DNA of 24,481 nt from a virus. Position 1 is the stretch's first letter. Each line of letters begins with the position of its first letter. The notes beneath the pieces were generated by a model. That model was not told where the DNA came from. It did no database searches and saw only the letters and a program-made list of their open reading frames with translations. Both the position numbers and the translations under genes were made by a program. This document shows, piece after piece, positions 2,523 through 13,904 of the stretch. The stretch spans positions 1 to 24,481 of IMG/VR virus record IMGVR_UViG_3300046660_000183. One strand, given 5' to 3'.

Positions 2523-2547
2523 CGTGGCCGATCCCAAGGAGATCGAC

Positions 2548-3162
2548 GTGGCGAAGAATGTCAGAGGGCGGTACTCCGCACCAAAGCCCTTCACGCCCGA
2601 GAGCGTGAAGCCTGAGGCTGGCTGGATTGGCGTGCCGGGTGCGCGACACATTCCTGCTTCCAGTGATCCCGTGTTCCCGCACTTCACTTCCGTGGTCGGT
2701 ACCTGGACGCGGGCGGGTATCGAGATGACTGACGAACTCATGGCCGCAGCCGTGCAACTTGCCACGGCACAGCTGGAACGTCGGATGCATCGACAGGCAA
2801 TCGAGCGGAGCCAGCAGGAGCGGGCGGCTGAAGCGGTGGCCAACATCCCGCCGTCCGGAACCTTTGGCGACGCCCCTGGCGGCGTCGTGTACTACGTGAG
2901 GCGCGACAGGTTCGTGAAGATTGGCACGACGACGCGTTTGCCGGTCCGGATGCGCGACCTGATGCCTGATGAGGTACTCGCCGTTGAGCCTGGAAGCTAC
3001 AAGCTGGAGGGTGAACTCCATCGACAGTTCGCCCATCTCCGCGTTCGCCCGAACTGCGAGTACTTCTTGCTCGGTCCTGAGCTGCGGGAGCATGTAGACC
3101 TTGTCCTTGATCGAGTAGGACCACCGCCCGAGGGGCTCGGAATCAAAGATCTGTTGGGGTGA
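2548..3162 (+). CDS. GIY-YIG family protein (T5orf172/MUG113-like domain)
   Basis: The product has 204 residues. GTG 2548 was chosen because AAGGAG (2536-2541) is 6 nt upstream; an in-frame GTG at 2524 lacks a site. Residues 1-60 are an unrecognised N-terminal region and 60-100 a helix. The domain spans about 112-178: VVYYVRRDRFVKIG supplies the YIG-like strand and KIG motif, R134 is the expected conserved arginine, and LEGELHRQFAHLR plus NCEYF form the conserved acidic helix and end. This is the T5orf172/MUG113 version of the GIY-YIG nuclease fold, common in phages and mobile elements. Nuclease activity is inferred, not shown. Base composition is visibly less GC-rich at third codon positions than the flanking genes. 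It stands alone between a leader hairpin and a terminator, like a morphogenesis-independent cargo gene. Confidence 0.85.
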   Translation: MAKNVRGRYSAPKPFTPESVKPEAGWIGVPGARHIPASSDPVFPHFTSVVGTWTRAGIEMTDELMAAAVQLATAQLERRMHRQAIERSQQERAAEAVANIPPSGTFGDAPGGVVYYVRRDRFVKIGTTTRLPVRMRDLMPDEVLAVEPGSYKLEGELHRQFAHLRVRPNCEYFLLGPELREHVDLVLDRVGPPPEGLGIKDLLG

Positions 3163-8754: not shown

Positions 8755-10182
8755 GTGGTGGACCGCTCCGACATTCAGTGGCTGAAGCATCTGATCCACT
8801 GCCACGACCAGGAGCTGCCGGAGCTGAGGAAGCTCAACAGCTACTACGAGGGCAAGCAACTGCTGTCGTACATGGCGCCGGAGCTGGAGCGTGAGCTGCA
8901 GGAGACGGTGCGGCAGGTCGTCATCAACTGGCCGCGCCTGGTGGTCGACTCGGTCGAGGAGCGTCTCGACGTCGAGGGCTTCCGCTTCCCCGGGGAGCCG
9001 GGTGCGGACACCGAGCTGTGGCGGATCTGGCAGGCCAACGACATGGATGAGCAGTCCCAGCAGGGGCATCTCGACTCGCTCGTCATGGGCCGCGCCTACG
9101 TCGTCGTCGGCACCCGGGAGGACGACGACAGCACGCCGCTCGTCACCGTCGAGTCGCCGATCGACATGTACGCCGACTTTGATCCGCAGACCCGTGAGGT
9201 GCGGGCCGCGGTGAAGAGGTGGTGCGAAGAGGAAGAGGGCGGCAAGAAGGTCGACCACGCCACCCTCTATCTGCCGAATACGACGTCGTGGTGGGTGAAG
9301 GAAGACGGCGCGTGGGTTGAGGACGCCGAGTACGCCCGTGATGAGCACAACATCGGCGAGGTCATGGTCGAAGTGCTCGCGAATCGGCCCCGACTGAAGA
9401 CACCGAACGGTGTCAGTGACCTGGCCGACGTCATCCCCATCTCGGATGCCGCCTGCAAGATCGCCACCGACATGATGGTGTCCGCCGAGTATCACGCCAC
9501 TCCTCGCCGGGTGGCGTTCGGGTTCGGCGAGGAGGATTTCGTCGACGCGAACGGCCGTAAGGTCTCGGCGTTCAGCCGGATTATCGGCCGGATGTGGGCG
9601 ACGGAGAAGAACCGCAAGGAGGACGGTGCGGACGTCGTTCAGTTCTCCGAGGCGTCGCTCTCGAACTTCCATGAGACGATCAAGCTGCTGGCTTCGCTCG
9701 TCGCCTCCCTGTCCGGGCTCCCGCCGCACTTCCTGGGGCACGCCACCGACAACCCGGCTTCCGCGGACGGCATCCGCAGCGCGGAGACCCGCCTGGTGAA
9801 GCGTGCCGAGCGCAAGCAGCGCAGGGCGGGCGGAACCTGGGAGCGCGTTAACCGCAAGGTGATGCGTATTCGGGACGGCGCCTGGAACGACGATGCGCGC
9901 TCGCTGGAGACGATCTGGCGGGACGCCTCGACGCCGACTGTTGCGCAGAAGGCGGATGCCGCAGTGAAGTTGTTCACGGCGCACATCGTGCCCTTGCGGC
10001 AGACCCGCGAGGACATGGGGTATACGCAGGCGCAGATTGAGCGGATGGAGGAGCAGGACGAGCAGGCGGCGCAGGATGCCATGCAGCGCATCATGAGCGG
10101 CGACCTCGCAGCTCTGGAAGCCGGCCCGAAGCCGCCCGAGGAGCCGGTTCCTCCTGAACCGCAGCCTGTCCAGGTGACCTGA
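8755..10182 (+). CDS. Portal protein, SPP1 gp6-like
   Basis: The product has 475 residues. GTG 8755 or the adjacent in-frame GTG 8758 could be the start, with AGGGG just upstream. It forms the dodecameric ring at the capsid vertex through which DNA passes. Family signs: the N-terminal YYEGKQLLSYM, VVINWPRLVVDSVEERLDVEGF, GRAYVVVG, SPIDMYADFDP, and the central SLSGLPPHFLGHATDNPASADGIRSAE stretch that precedes the long clip/stem helix in gp6-like portals. The C-terminus is acidic and proline-rich. It lies directly after the large terminase and 1 bp before the MuF-like gene, the normal order. Confidence 0.93.
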   Translation: MVDRSDIQWLKHLIHCHDQELPELRKLNSYYEGKQLLSYMAPELERELQETVRQVVINWPRLVVDSVEERLDVEGFRFPGEPGADTELWRIWQANDMDEQSQQGHLDSLVMGRAYVVVGTREDDDSTPLVTVESPIDMYADFDPQTREVRAAVKRWCEEEEGGKKVDHATLYLPNTTSWWVKEDGAWVEDAEYARDEHNIGEVMVEVLANRPRLKTPNGVSDLADVIPISDAACKIATDMMVSAEYHATPRRVAFGFGEEDFVDANGRKVSAFSRIIGRMWATEKNRKEDGADVVQFSEASLSNFHETIKLLASLVASLSGLPPHFLGHATDNPASADGIRSAETRLVKRAERKQRRAGGTWERVNRKVMRIRDGAWNDDARSLETIWRDASTPTVAQKADAAVKLFTAHIVPLRQTREDMGYTQAQIERMEEQDEQAAQDAMQRIMSGDLAALEAGPKPPEEPVPPEPQPVQVT

Positions 10183-10183
10183 C

Positions 10184-11251
10184 ATGCGGATCACGCGATC
10201 AGTGCGCGAGATCGCCCTGGCCTTTCAGGCAGCGCAGGCTCGCCGAACTCGTCTCACCGTGAACGAGGTTCAGCGCCTGTGGTCCCAATTGGACCGTGCA
10301 GATCTGTCGGGATCGTGGGATGCCTCGGTGGGGCCGCGGATTGTCCGCGCTATCACGGCTGGCCAGCTGTCATCGGCGGCCGCTGCGGACGGGTATGTGG
10401 ATGAGGTGGTGGATGCCGAGGGTGCGGATCCGGCTCGGGCGGGCCGGGTTCGCCCCGAGGCGTTTGCTGGGCTGGCGGCTGACGGACGGTCGCTGGACTC
10501 GCTGATGCTGTTGTCGGTTATCACGACCAAGCAGGGCATCGCCGGTGGCCTCTCGACAGACGATGCGCTGATGCGGGGCCTGAGCCAGGCGTTGCGGCTG
10601 TCGACGTCGGAGGTGACGCAGGCGGGCCGGAGCGCGGTCGGCTCCAGCATGGCCGGGAAGCGGACGATCCAGGGCTACGTGCGGGTGGTGCAGCCTCCGG
10701 CCTGCTCCCGCTGCGTGATCCTCGCAGGCACGGAGTACGGCTGGAACAGGGGCTTCCAGCGGCATCCGCGCTGCGACTGCGTACACCTGCCGACGACCCT
10801 GATTGCCCGCAATCAGCACCGCGGCTCGCTGCCATCTGACGACTTTTCGCCGACGACGCGCCCCGGAGCGGGTGGTCGCGGCTTCCTCGATCCGAACGCC
10901 TATTTCAATGGCTTGTCGCGCGCGGAGCAGGATCGCGTGTTCACCGCTGCCGGAGCGCGGGCGATCCGTGAGGGCGGCGACATGTCGCAGATCGTTAACG
11001 CCCGTCGCGGCATGTACACCACGACGACCTACGGCCGCACGTTGCGTGCGACCCGCGAGGGTACGACGACCCGGGGCTTCTTCTACCGGCAGGAGCGGGC
11101 CCGGGACATTGCCCGAGGCCGGGTGCCTGCGGACATCGGCCGCCAGTACCGGCTGACGTCGCCACGTCTGCTGCCCGAGCAGATTTTCAAGCTCGCCGAG
11201 TCCCGCGATGAAGCGATCGCGATGCTCCGGCGTTTCGGCTACCTGAGCTGA
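10184..11251 (+). CDS. MuF-like head morphogenesis protein
   Basis: The product has 355 residues, with ATG 10184 one base after the portal stop. The N-terminal half is helical. The region about 170-205 holds PPACSRCVILAGTEYG and HPRCDCVHLP, so C174, C177, H194, C197, C199 and H201 can form the metal-binding core typical of MuF-family minor head proteins. In this family the protein is carried inside the capsid near the portal, sometimes fused to a toxin or protease. Here the C-terminal part (residues 230-355) has a short conserved phage tail (LDPNAYFNGLSRAEQDRVFTAAGARAIREGG) and no recognised effector or protease motif. Capsid maturation may instead rely on the Prp-like gene downstream. Confidence 0.88.
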   Translation: MRITRSVREIALAFQAAQARRTRLTVNEVQRLWSQLDRADLSGSWDASVGPRIVRAITAGQLSSAAAADGYVDEVVDAEGADPARAGRVRPEAFAGLAADGRSLDSLMLLSVITTKQGIAGGLSTDDALMRGLSQALRLSTSEVTQAGRSAVGSSMAGKRTIQGYVRVVQPPACSRCVILAGTEYGWNRGFQRHPRCDCVHLPTTLIARNQHRGSLPSDDFSPTTRPGAGGRGFLDPNAYFNGLSRAEQDRVFTAAGARAIREGGDMSQIVNARRGMYTTTTYGRTLRATREGTTTRGFFYRQERARDIARGRVPADIGRQYRLTSPRLLPEQIFKLAESRDEAIAMLRRFGYLS

Positions 11252-11318: not shown

Positions 11319-12011
11319 ATGAGCACGACGCGTACCCGCTGGCTGCCCGCTGCCCAGAGCGCGGACTGGTTCCAGCTGACCCGGCATGACGACCCCGAAC
11401 CGGCCGACCCGGAGCCTGCTCCGGACCCGGTGGACGATCCGGCAGATTCTGATCCGGAGCCGGACCCGGAGGGCGCCGACAAGCTCGGCGACGCCGGCAA
11501 GAAGGCCCTGGACAAGATGAAGGCGGATCGAGCCGAGGCCAAGCGCCTGGCTGCCGCCGAGAAGAAGCGGGCCGACGAACTCGCTCGGAAGGTCGCCGAG
11601 TTCGAGGACGCCCAGAAGTCGGAGCTGGAGAAGGCCACCACGAAGGCCGAGCGGCTCGAAGCTGCCGCCGCGAAGGCCACGGCCCGCGCGGTGAAGGCCG
11701 AAGTAAAGGCTGCTGCCGCCGAGTTCGCCGACCCCGAGGACGCTGCCGCGTTCCTCGACCTGTCCTCCTACACCAGCGACGACGGGGAGATCGACACCGA
11801 GGCAATCTCGGCCGACCTCGACGCTCTCCTGGAGCGCAAGCCGCACCTGCGCAGGGCCGCCTCCGCTGAGCCGAAGAAGCCCGCACCCAAGCCCGACCCG
11901 GGACAGGGTGCACGACCCGCTGAGCCGCCGGCCGACTTCCGCACTGCCGATCGTGCAGCGCTGGACGCCGAACTGGCGAAGGTCGCTCCCGGGTTCCGCA
12001 TCCGCTCGTGA
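11319..12011 (+). CDS. Capsid scaffolding protein
   Basis: The product has 230 residues, with ATG 11319 behind CGGGAGC. After a basic start comes DWFQLTRHD (WFQLTRHD at residues 17-24), then a Pro/Asp/Glu-rich stretch (DPEPADPEPAP), a long Lys/Ala/Glu coiled coil (about 50-140), and an acidic SSYTSDDGEIDTEAI region ending in a Pro-rich tail and FRIRS. This is the layout of phage scaffolds (DUF4355-like), which guide capsid assembly and are then removed. It lies directly before the Prp-like protease and capsid genes. The WFxLxRHD element recurs in the capsid protein N-terminus and is a candidate protease site. The stop overlaps the next start (GTGA). Confidence 0.9.
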   Translation: MSTTRTRWLPAAQSADWFQLTRHDDPEPADPEPAPDPVDDPADSDPEPDPEGADKLGDAGKKALDKMKADRAEAKRLAAAEKKRADELARKVAEFEDAQKSELEKATTKAERLEAAAAKATARAVKAEVKAAAAEFADPEDAAAFLDLSSYTSDDGEIDTEAISADLDALLERKPHLRRAASAEPKKPAPKPDPGQGARPAEPPADFRTADRAALDAELAKVAPGFRIRS

Positions 12012-12196
12012 TCCGCATCCGTGCCCGCTTGGGCGACGGGCACACCTCGATCGAGGTGGACGGACACGAGGGGCACGCCGTGGACGGCCGCGTATGTGCG
12101 GCGATCACGGCTATCACTCAAACCGCCCTGCTGGGCCTGGAGCAGTACGCCCTGCAGTACCCGGACCTCGTGTCCGTCGAGATCACACAGGAGTAG
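12008..12196 (+). CDS. Prp-like cysteine protease, very short, between scaffold and capsid
   Basis: The product has 62 residues. GTG 12008 overlaps the scaffold stop, and ATRIR-type upstream extension is impossible because the frame is fixed by the overlap. The sequence IEVDGHEGHAVDGRVCAAIT followed by AITQTALLGLE matches the core of the Prp family (ribosomal-processing cysteine protease, PF04327). Catalytic His would be H20 in GHEGH and Cys C30 in VCAA. Known cellular Prp proteins are about 105-110 residues with the His and Cys 12 apart; here they are 10 apart and the C-terminal half is missing. Prp trims ribosomal L27 in Firmicutes and also processes scaffold and capsid of phage 80-alpha. 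A capsid/scaffold-processing role is therefore inferred. Confidence 0.8.
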   Translation: MIRIRARLGDGHTSIEVDGHEGHAVDGRVCAAITAITQTALLGLEQYALQYPDLVSVEITQE

Positions 12197-12198
12197 AC

Positions 12199-13497
12199 AT
12201 GACCACACTGACGGCTGCCAAGCCGTGGTTCCGGCTCGACCGCCACGATGTGCGGTCGACCGTCCCGGCCGCGATCCGCGCCATGATGCAGAACGGCATC
12301 CTGGACAGGGTCTTCCAGGAGGCGCTGCGTCCGAACTTCATCTTCCCGGCCATCGCTGATGCGATGCCGTGGCAGGGCGGGCTCGGTGACACCAAGACGT
12401 TCACCCGTAAGGGCCTGCTCGCTCCGGCGACCACACCGATCACCGGCTCGGACACGTCGGCGGCGACGTACTCGATCGAGCAGTGGTCTGTGACGATGGA
12501 CCAGTACGGTCAGGCTGTCGACACGAACATGCTGACCAGCAGCATGGCTCTCGCGTCTAAGTTCCTCGCCGACGTGGAGACCCTCGGCATCAACGCGGGG
12601 CAGTCCATCAACCAGGTGGCCCGGAACAAGCTGTACGGCGCCTACATGGGTGGCCGCACCTGGTGCACCACGGGTGGAACCTCGGACACGTCGATCATCG
12701 TGAACTCGGTGGCCGGCTTCCAGTACGTGCTCGTCAACGGCGTCCCCACCGCAGTGTCGGCGTCGAACCCGCTCACCGTCACTATCGCGGGCACCGGGAA
12801 CACGGTGACCGGCGTGAACGCGGGCACGAACACGCTGACGCTCGGCACGGCCCGGGTGGACGTCGCCGGCGACTCGGTGGTGGCAGCCAACGCCCCGGTG
12901 ACCGTGCGGCCGACCGGTTCGACGGCCTACGACCTCGGCACCTCGAACGTTGCGACGTTCGCGCTGTTCCGCAGCTGTGTCACTCGCCTGCGGAAGATGA
13001 ACGTTCCGACGGTGGGCGGCTACTACATCGCCCACATCGACCCCGACACCGAGGCGCAGCTGTTCTCCGACTCGGACTTCAAGCAGGCCCTCCAGGGGCG
13101 TGTGGACAGCCCGATCTACCGGGACCTGTCGATCGGCCGGTTCGGCGGTATCGACTGGGTCCGCAACATCGAGGCCCCCACTGTGCTGGGTGGTTCCGCG
13201 GGCAACGTGACCGTGCACCGCCCGATCGTGCTTGGTGCGGGCGCGCTGGTGGCGGCCCCCTTCGAGGGCATGGGTGACCTGCTGCGCGGCAGCGGCGTCG
13301 AGGATGTCCCCGACATCTCGATGGTCAACGCGGCGCCCGGAGTCGACGTGGCCCGGATCGTCCGGCCGCCGCAGGACCGCCTGCAGCAGAACCTGTCGAC
13401 CTCCTGGTCGTGGGTGGGCGACTACGGCGTCCCGTCGGACTCCACCACCGGTGACGCGGCCCTGTACAAGCGCGCCGTGGTCCTCGAGCACGCCTGA
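12199..13497 (+). CDS. Major capsid protein (HK97-fold)
   Basis: The product has 432 residues, with ATG 12199 and AGGAG 5 nt upstream. It builds the icosahedral shell. The N-terminal arm holds WFRLDRHD (residues 10-17), shared with the scaffold. Then come an ALRPNFIFPAIADAMPWQGG region, TKTFTRKGLLAP (E-loop-like area), YSIEQWSVTMDQYGQAVDTNM, and helix ETLGINAGQSINQVARNKLYGAYM. A Thr/Val/Asn-rich stretch (about 180-240) looks like an inserted beta domain. The later FALFRSCVTRLRKMNVPTVGGYYIAHIDPDTEAQLF is typical of P22/T4-like major capsid proteins in actinophages. Its place after scaffold and protease confirms the call. Confidence 0.93.
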   Translation: MTTLTAAKPWFRLDRHDVRSTVPAAIRAMMQNGILDRVFQEALRPNFIFPAIADAMPWQGGLGDTKTFTRKGLLAPATTPITGSDTSAATYSIEQWSVTMDQYGQAVDTNMLTSSMALASKFLADVETLGINAGQSINQVARNKLYGAYMGGRTWCTTGGTSDTSIIVNSVAGFQYVLVNGVPTAVSASNPLTVTIAGTGNTVTGVNAGTNTLTLGTARVDVAGDSVVAANAPVTVRPTGSTAYDLGTSNVATFALFRSCVTRLRKMNVPTVGGYYIAHIDPDTEAQLFSDSDFKQALQGRVDSPIYRDLSIGRFGGIDWVRNIEAPTVLGGSAGNVTVHRPIVLGAGALVAAPFEGMGDLLRGSGVEDVPDISMVNAAPGVDVARIVRPPQDRLQQNLSTSWSWVGDYGVPSDSTTGDAALYKRAVVLEHA

Positions 13498-13553: not shown

Positions 13554-13904
13554 ATGCGCGCGAAGGTGCTTGAGAACATCACCCCGTACTGGAACTACGG
13601 CATCCACCCCCTGGCGGAGGGTGAGGAGGTCAGCGGTGATCTGGCTGCCTACCTCGTGTCCACGCATTCGCCCGTCGAGCCGCTCGACGACGAGGCCGCC
13701 GCTCTCCTGGAGCCCGCCCCGGAAGAATCCAAGGAGCCGCCCGCCGAGCTGGACATCGACGGCACCGCCGCCGACGTCCTGGCCTGGGTGGGCGAGGACC
13801 CGGAGCGGGCTGCGGTTGCCCTGGAGGCAGAGCAGGCGAAGGAGAAGCCGCGCTCGACTCTGGTGAAGCAGCTGGAGAAGCTCGCTGACTCCGACAGCGA
13901 GTGA
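13554..13904 (+). CDS. Small acidic head-associated protein
   Basis: The product has 116 residues, with ATG 13554 behind GAAGGAGG. A short N-terminal beta part (MRAKVLENITPYWNYGIHPLAEGEEVSGDLAAYLVSTH) is followed by a Glu/Pro/Ala-rich linker (about 43-65). A helical end follows (GTAADVLAWVGEDPERAAVALEAEQ... LVKQLEKLAD) that resembles a small SAP- or head-fibre-like domain found in many actinophage proteins at this locus. It lies between the major capsid and head-tail connector genes, so a head decoration or neck role is likely. No experimental role is assignable from sequence. Confidence 0.7.
   Translation: MRAKVLENITPYWNYGIHPLAEGEEVSGDLAAYLVSTHSPVEPLDDEAAALLEPAPEESKEPPAELDIDGTAADVLAWVGEDPERAAVALEAEQAKEKPRSTLVKQLEKLADSDSE

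Follow-up and report, generated by a model that had tools for sequence, protein, structure and literature searches.

A predicted single-module Prp-like protease encoded between the scaffold and capsid genes of an actinobacterial phage, and a candidate cleavage motif on both proteins

Introduction

The closest described system is that of staphylococcal phage 80-alpha, whose scaffold and capsid proteins are cut by the Prp cysteine protease of the host at KFNLQFF'A and KLNLQHF'A (PMC9405229; PMC5744158). The N-terminus of the 80-alpha scaffold is essential while its cleavage is dispensable (PMC5744158); cellular Prp also cuts ribosomal protein L27, has the topology bb-a-bb-a-b and is dimeric in crystals, with the substrate residues L4 and L6 (P4 and P6 in our reading) located where the two subunits meet (PMC9405229). 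The S. aureus enzyme is inactivated by either D31A or S38A, the latter in helix 1; Asp31 contacts the Gln at P3 of the substrates, in which P6 and P4 are hydrophobic, P1 is aromatic and P1' is small (PMC9405229).

Cleavage of phage scaffold and capsid by Prp is thus already known from 80-alpha; since the enzyme is there host-borne and essential to the host, removing it to learn what it does in assembly is difficult. In the literature that we consulted, mostly outside subscription journals, we found no description of a phage-encoded Prp together with the motif of its scaffold and capsid. Here we examine a stretch of viral DNA (hereafter the window, that is, the whole 24,481 nucleotides analysed), in which an earlier note had pointed to a shrunken, phage-borne Prp.

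Results and Discussion

Organization of the head genes

The virus infects soil bacteria such as Streptomyces. The genes of its head cluster are arranged in the order portal, VG15 protein, scaffold, Prp-like gene, capsid, an ORF without matches (13554-13904) and head-tail adaptor, which is the gene order of Streptomyces phage Kromp. The relevant features are the following:

8755..10182, plus strand: portal protein, given as context (PF05133, 1.7e-57).
10184..11251, plus strand: VG15/phrog_1522 protein, with the database label head or capsid maturation protease; rival candidate.
11319..12011, plus strand: scaffolding protein of 230 aa, predicted substrate (phrog_4708, 1e-23; Phage_scaffold, 1e-6, below the cut-off).
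11367..11390, plus strand: predicted cleavage motif WFQLTRH'D, scaffold residues 17-24; predicted cut after His23, placed by alignment with known Prp sites.
12008..12196, plus strand: predicted single-module Prp-like cysteine protease of 62 aa (PF04327, phrog_4478, conservation, selection).
12065-12067 and 12095-12097, plus strand: codons of His20 and Cys30, the predicted catalytic dyad.
12199..13497, plus strand: major capsid protein of 432 aa, predicted substrate (phrog_1357, 1.1e-26; N4-gp56 family capsid model below the cut-off).
12226..12249, plus strand: predicted cleavage motif WFRLDRH'D, capsid residues 10-17; predicted cut after His16.

The 62-residue ORF is as the earlier note described it, with GHEGHAVDGRVCAAIT followed by TALLGLE; it runs from a GTG at 12008 to the stop at 12194-12196 and translates to VIRIRARLGDGHTSIEVDGHEGHAVDGRVCAAITAITQTALLGLEQYALQYPDLVSVEITQE. 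The GTG overlaps the stop codon of the scaffold gene (GTGA), and the capsid ATG at 12199 lies 2 nt beyond the Prp-like stop. Kromp gp6, annotated as 'protease', is its direct ortholog (75.8% identity) and the sole match of the window protein at E<=1 among 50,697 phage records. Elsewhere in the window, 2524-3162 encodes a protein matching the T5orf172 and MUG113 domains.

Homology, conservation and selection

The window protein matches PF04327 at 3.1e-6 with 27.8 bits, narrowly above the curated cut-off of 27; a six-frame search of the contig with the same model gave 24.9 bits, slightly below it. The NCBIfam Prp equivalogs score 20 bits or less against cut-offs of 133 or more, and phrog_4478 ('peptidase') matches at 2.5e-5. 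A scan of IMG/VR retrieved 55 relatives, which, after the frameshifted L057 had been left out, were aligned with the window and Kromp proteins to give 56 sequences, 42 of them distinct. Twelve positions (G19, H20, C30, Q38, T39, A40, G43, L44, P52, D53, V55 and S56) are invariant in 42/42 distinct proteins, among them the counterparts of the Prp residues Gly21, His22 and Cys34 (G19, H20 and C30), and position 34, corresponding to Ser38 of the S. aureus enzyme, is occupied by Ser (24/42) or Thr (18/42), the window protein having Thr, a conservative substitution. H20 and C30 are likewise invariant in a second, broader alignment of 42 sequences that overlaps the first, and 42/42 of its members match PF04327 at E<=0.01. 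Both the kinship with Prp and the conservation of the two putative catalytic residues, as the earlier note had anticipated, are thus borne out.

In 112 loci retrieved from phages and prophages (Kromp included, repeats counted; 91 distinct gene sequences) the gene is flanked by scaffold and capsid. Its placement in the head cluster of a phage of a high-GC host agrees with the earlier note. Among 87 distinct nucleotide sequences the median pN/pS is 0.36, pN is lower than pS in 99.97% of 3727 pairs with pS>0.1, and 54% of the changes fall on codon position 3. Purifying selection thus acts on the gene, and the window ORF is genuine and conserved, with kinship to the cysteine protease Prp (PF04327).

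Scanning the GTDB species genomes with the family profile yielded 55 loci, 20 actinobacterial (12 Streptomyces, 2 Nonomuraea, 3 Streptosporangiaceae MAG contigs and one each of Sphaerimonospora, Catenulispora and Glycomyces) and 35 other. The former have genes of 62-65 aa, with the motif described below on the capsid in 20/20 and on the scaffold in 19/20 (the remaining scaffold is cut off). The latter are longer Prps of Firmicutes, Spirochaetes and others, 33/35 of them 91-123 aa long, in keeping with the noted shortening of about 40%; by reading, an rplU-like ORF lies upstream in 29/35. Against the sequences of solved structures, the phage profile retrieved the Prps 2g0i (E 0.023), 4peo (0.092) and 2idl (1.6) plus two unrelated chains, while phmmer with the single window protein retrieved no Prp, its matches being three chains of an unrelated antiporter at E 1.4 or worse; this search thus lends the Prp kinship weak support.

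A single module lacking Asp31

The predicted structure of the phage protein consists of two strands and one long helix (pLDDT 86, pTM 0.60), and the model does not have the bb-a-bb-a-b topology of cellular Prp. By hhalign, the phage profile aligns with the N-terminal half of cellular Prp, catalytic residues included, at 99%, and also with its C-terminal half (score 46.7, residues 4-58, YPxxV tail included), where 100 column-shuffled versions of that half reached a maximum score of 17.4. This double fit recurs with HMMER and NCBIfam. Taken together, the profile alignments and the model indicate that the protein consists of a single beta-beta-alpha module, for which each half of cellular Prp provides a counterpart. 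The idea of a shrunken Prp is right as regards size, but mere truncation of a Prp does not describe the protein. Compared with each other, the N and C halves of cellular Prp gave a weak match (24.5% by hhalign), too little to establish that they arose by internal duplication.

A two-residue deletion directly precedes the V-C pair (GR--VCAA against GKDIVCAA) and removes Asp31; it also accounts for the His-Cys distance of 10 remarked upon earlier, the longer relatives having two more residues before Cys. Tests for Asp31 and for the two-module topology were both negative. We therefore keep the protein out of family C108 in the strict sense and describe it as a single-module variant related to Prp, which most likely works like Prp. 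By analogy with the crystal dimer of Prp and the substrate contacts at its interface, it probably functions as a homodimer.

Foldseek against the PDB gave no match at E<=0.001 and no Prp among the 26 matches listed, whereas re-alignment with VIA of 51 chains ranked T. maritima Prp (1s12, TM1457) first, weakly (Z 4.6, rmsd 2.4, 53 residues), on chain residues 40-92, its C-terminal part. In BFVD, a 61-aa phage 'Cysteine protease Prp' (UniProt A0A6J5LQL6) was found at E 4.9e-4 (TM 0.73, 35% identity).

A motif common to the scaffold and capsid N-termini

Scaffold and capsid share the N-terminal motif W-F-x-L-x-R-H-D or, more broadly, F-x-L-x-R-(H/F)-(mostly D). On the plus strand of the window, the pattern [WF][FAR].[LIV].R[HF] occurs at two positions, 11367 (scaffold residue 17) and 12226 (capsid residue 10); the minus strand has one match, in a short ORF.

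For the 112 loci (repeats included) we located scaffold and capsid by homology and used the pattern [FY].[LIV].R[HF], which had been relaxed (Tyr at P6, any P1') after the misses of a stricter one were seen; that stricter pattern had given 106/110 for the capsid, 94/106 for the scaffold and 88/104 for both, with some scaffolds read in the wrong frame. The motif is present in 109/109 capsids (located in 109/112 loci) and in 102/111 scaffolds (located in 111/112). Eight of the nine scaffold misses are contig ends and were set aside, and the ninth (L041) has the motif in another frame. Both proteins carry it in 99/100 loci in which both N-termini are readable, that is, in 83/84 distinct combinations. 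As a control, the first 80 residues of other ORFs of at least 150 codons from the same loci contain the motif in 1/1584 cases, a figure to be read knowing that the scaffold and capsid stretches searched could exceed 80 residues and that many control ORFs are probably not genes; with the first 140 residues the count is 2/1722 distinct ORFs, one of them the frame-shifted L041 scaffold. The stretch preceding the motif differs in length and sequence among loci.

Counted over 78 distinct scaffold and 68 distinct capsid contexts, P6 is Phe in 78/78 and 67/68 (the other being Tyr), P4 is Leu in 74/78 and 63/68, P2 is Arg in all, P1 is His in 73/78 (the other five Phe) and 68/68, and P1' is Asp in 66/78 and 45/68; P3 is Gln in 1/78 scaffold contexts (L018) and 0/68 capsid contexts. 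The motif lines up with the LQxF'A sites of Prp, F-x-L-x-R-H-D aligning with F-N-L-Q-R-F-A, and the P6, P4 and P1 features that are reported to matter for S. aureus Prp substrates (PMC9405229) are retained. The FDLARF'DE of the Nonomuraea-type scaffolds is intermediate between the two. A cut would most likely fall between His and Asp, judging from this alignment.

A further 22 loci were chosen from 71 + 16 matches with the earlier contigs excluded, 5/22 being already in the capsid scan described below. The capsid motif is present in 21/22, the exception being L406, and the scaffold motif was found by pattern in 18/22; of the others, L392 reads WFRLTRHDA, L360 has the variant FNLACFDE, and the scaffolds of L384 and L406 are cut off. 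L406 has a divergent Prp-like gene (105-302, 42% identity), a capsid N-terminus without recognisable motif and a scaffold start off the contig. A tandem, two-copy motif (WFRLDRHDGLRT...WFDLGRHDVR) occurs at the capsid N-terminus in a Streptomyces scabiei prophage (L060, 8192 onward) and in L125 and L126.

Co-occurrence of motif and gene

When loci were selected by the capsid alone (best 80 of 329), the Prp-like gene was found in 79/80, the remaining locus having 54 nt upstream of the capsid, and the capsid motif in 80/80. We compared these with a sister capsid family related to that of Komagataeibacter phage phiKX1, whose capsid is 32% identical to that of the window. Among the best 80 of 114 sister loci there was no Prp-like match below E=1 and the capsid motif was found in 0/80, with at least 1000 nt available upstream of the capsid in 69/80 and at least 300 nt in 76/80. 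The sister scaffold was read for phiKX1 alone; within 1500 nt upstream of the sister capsids, the pattern occurs in some plus-strand frame in 5/80, a count over three frames that includes chance. The sister capsids start with M-x-I-x-N-F-P or similar, immediately past the predicted cut position.

Host genomes

PF04327 has one match at E<=0.001 in each of seven actinobacterial host genomes (7/7), namely the gene of the prophage. Among 199 Streptomyces genomes it matched in two: one is the S. scabiei genome with its prophage, which had served as centre, and the other holds a further prophage whose locus carries both the scaffold and the capsid motif. The host L27 is of the short form, starting MAHKKG without extension, in 7/7 genomes, with a stop within 7 codons upstream in 6/7; in L407 the frame is open and the start was inferred. 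According to these data, the enzyme is hardly borrowed from the host and L27 is not a likely target; with no Prp in the hosts examined, the phage must bring its own. The 80-alpha type of cut, at LQFF'A and by a host Prp, is thus not that of this system, in which P3 is rarely Gln, P1 is mostly His and a host Prp was not found.

Interpretation and alternative explanations

We favour, with a probability of about 0.78, the reading that a phage-borne single-module Prp variant acts as a homodimer and processes the scaffold and capsid of the same phage, cutting between His and Asp. The common motif lends support to the action on these two proteins that the earlier note had implied. Beyond that note, the present analysis adds the motif itself and the single-module architecture with the Asp31 deletion. 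Several points call for caution: Asp31, essential in S. aureus Prp, is deleted, although the invariant dyad argues for activity; Foldseek returned no Prp from the PDB and the T. maritima Prp match has a Z of 4.6; P1' is mostly Asp, whereas the known S. aureus Prp substrates have small residues; another gene bears a maturation-protease label; and the L406 capsid is without the motif.

The loss of Asp31 is also what one would expect of a Prp-derived assembly factor that binds the common motif and no longer cuts, and in 80-alpha it is the scaffold N-terminus that is essential and not the cleavage (PMC5744158), so that conservation of the motif need not mean cleavage. We consider such a role unlikely, since binding alone would not require an invariant His20/Cys30 pair or a position 34 restricted to Ser and Thr, and since the sister capsids that have no Prp-like gene start where the cut would leave the N-terminus.

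In principle, the VG15 protein (10184-11251) might instead be the real maturation protease, with another role for the Prp-like gene. It matches phrog_1522 'head maturation protease' and PF25310 VG15, and its Kromp counterpart gp4 is annotated as 'capsid maturation protease'; the remark in the earlier note that it saw no classical prohead protease is only partly right: among 30 ORFs scanned in the 24,481-base record, none had a Pfam match to S14, S49, S78 or U35, but this gene bears a maturation-protease label. The invariant or near-invariant columns of VG15 form a C-x2-C ... R-H-P-x-C-x-C cluster with no invariant Ser; its model is largely helical, fold searches listed helical-bundle look-alikes and no protease fold stood out among the matches listed, and hhalign against MuF minor head proteins gave no match (0.1%). 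In view of these conserved residues and of what the fold searches listed, VG15 may be mislabelled. This alternative, which moreover leaves the Prp-type motif unexplained, seems to us quite improbable.

Even less can be said for a host target during infection such as L27, which cellular Prp does cut (PMC9405229): the extension is missing from the host L27 in 7/7 genomes, the Prp-like gene belongs to the head operon and goes along with scaffold and capsid, and we regard this as very improbable. That the ORF arose by chance in GC-rich DNA, where the window has many long overlapping ORFs, has a negligible probability and was rejected on conservation, codon-position bias and profile matches.

Returning to trimming by a Prp variant, the process might run as follows. 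The Prp-like proteins would pair as a homodimer, two copies replacing the two beta-beta-alpha modules of cellular Prp. Like the N-terminus of the 80-alpha scaffold, the motif would probably act as a tag for assembly before it is cut. The Cys30/His20 dyad would then sever scaffold and capsid between the His and Asp of the motif while procapsid assembly is still at an early stage, and the window capsid would lose 16 residues and the scaffold 23. A further step, which we put forward tentatively and with less than even confidence, is that this one-module protease is active solely as a homodimer, which would restore the two-module fold, and that Asp31 and the P3 Gln were lost together, giving rise to a new phage-specific site, FxLxRH'D, common to scaffold and capsid. 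The pairing of the two losses has exceptions: Gln occupies P3 in the L018 scaffold, and the Prp of Acutalibacter phage Fontainebleau has Asn at the Asp31 position with the substrate Gln kept.

With the enzyme and its predicted substrates encoded in the same phage gene cluster, and no Prp found that belongs to the host, a clean knock-out of this step would be feasible. If the proposal is true, a half-module protease of 62 residues is a remarkably small enzyme, one with implications for how the Prp fold originated. Moreover, searching for the motif could bring to light further Prp systems encoded by phages, in which the protease now goes under the name 'hypothetical protein' or 'peptidase'.

Comparison with known systems

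With the Prps of family C108/PF04327 (S. aureus Prp, T. maritima TM1457) the phage protein shares the GH...CAA His/Cys dyad, in which His is preceded by Gly and Cys is followed at the fourth residue by Ser or Thr; the profiles are homologous over residues 1-53, and the C-terminal YPxxV segments are similar. It differs in length (62-65 aa, where those Prps have about 105), in having a single beta-beta-alpha module in place of two and no Asp31, in being encoded by a phage, in its predicted site, FxLxRH'D instead of LQFF'A, and in that the host L27 is not a likely target. With 80-alpha it has in common a Prp-type N-terminal motif on both scaffold and capsid; the enzyme is host-borne there and phage-encoded here, and the motif differs at P3-P1'.

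Annotated phages with a Prp amount to 21 records, of which, besides Kromp, 19/20 were fetched (a duplicate PLgT-1 was left out). Seven of the 19 (L320, L323, L324, L326, L328, L329 and L330) have ribosomal protein L27 adjoining and thus look like bacterial chromosome pieces recorded as 'phage'; two are short pieces without head genes, and ten are head modules with a full-length Prp. The latter, near-duplicates included, represent about seven lineages, and three are unannotated metagenome clones; an LQxF-type motif is present at the start of the capsid or a capsid-sized ORF in 10/10 and on the scaffold too in 8/10, an example being KFNLQRF'A in TP712.

Some of these records deserve separate mention. 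Downstream of the head genes, L178 (7722) and L175 (7917) encode a third protein that begins with an LQLF motif (MFETGLQLFAEA; MKKKIFDLQLFDES), which suggests a further virion protein as a possible Prp substrate in these phages. The Fontainebleau minor capsid protein (L175, 1827-3725) is fused to a Gln_amidase (papain-fold) toxin domain. The Prp of a Latilactobacillus phage (L176, 4001-4315) is annotated as a 75-aa hypothetical protein starting inside the gene, whose reading frame begins earlier and overlaps the portal gene.

Kromp gp6 and UniProt A0A6J5LQL6 belong to the same size class as the window protein and carry protease labels without a substrate or site. The full-length phage Prps (Lactococcus TP712 and PLgT-1, Acutalibacter Fontainebleau, Oenococcus Krappator and Latilactobacillus) resemble the present system in combining a Prp gene in the head cluster with a motif-bearing scaffold and capsid. 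They are about 95-108 aa long (four ORFs read), have LQxF'A/S/D sites and are in several cases recorded as 'peptidase'; in the named phages the gene lies upstream of the scaffold, whereas here it lies between scaffold and capsid.
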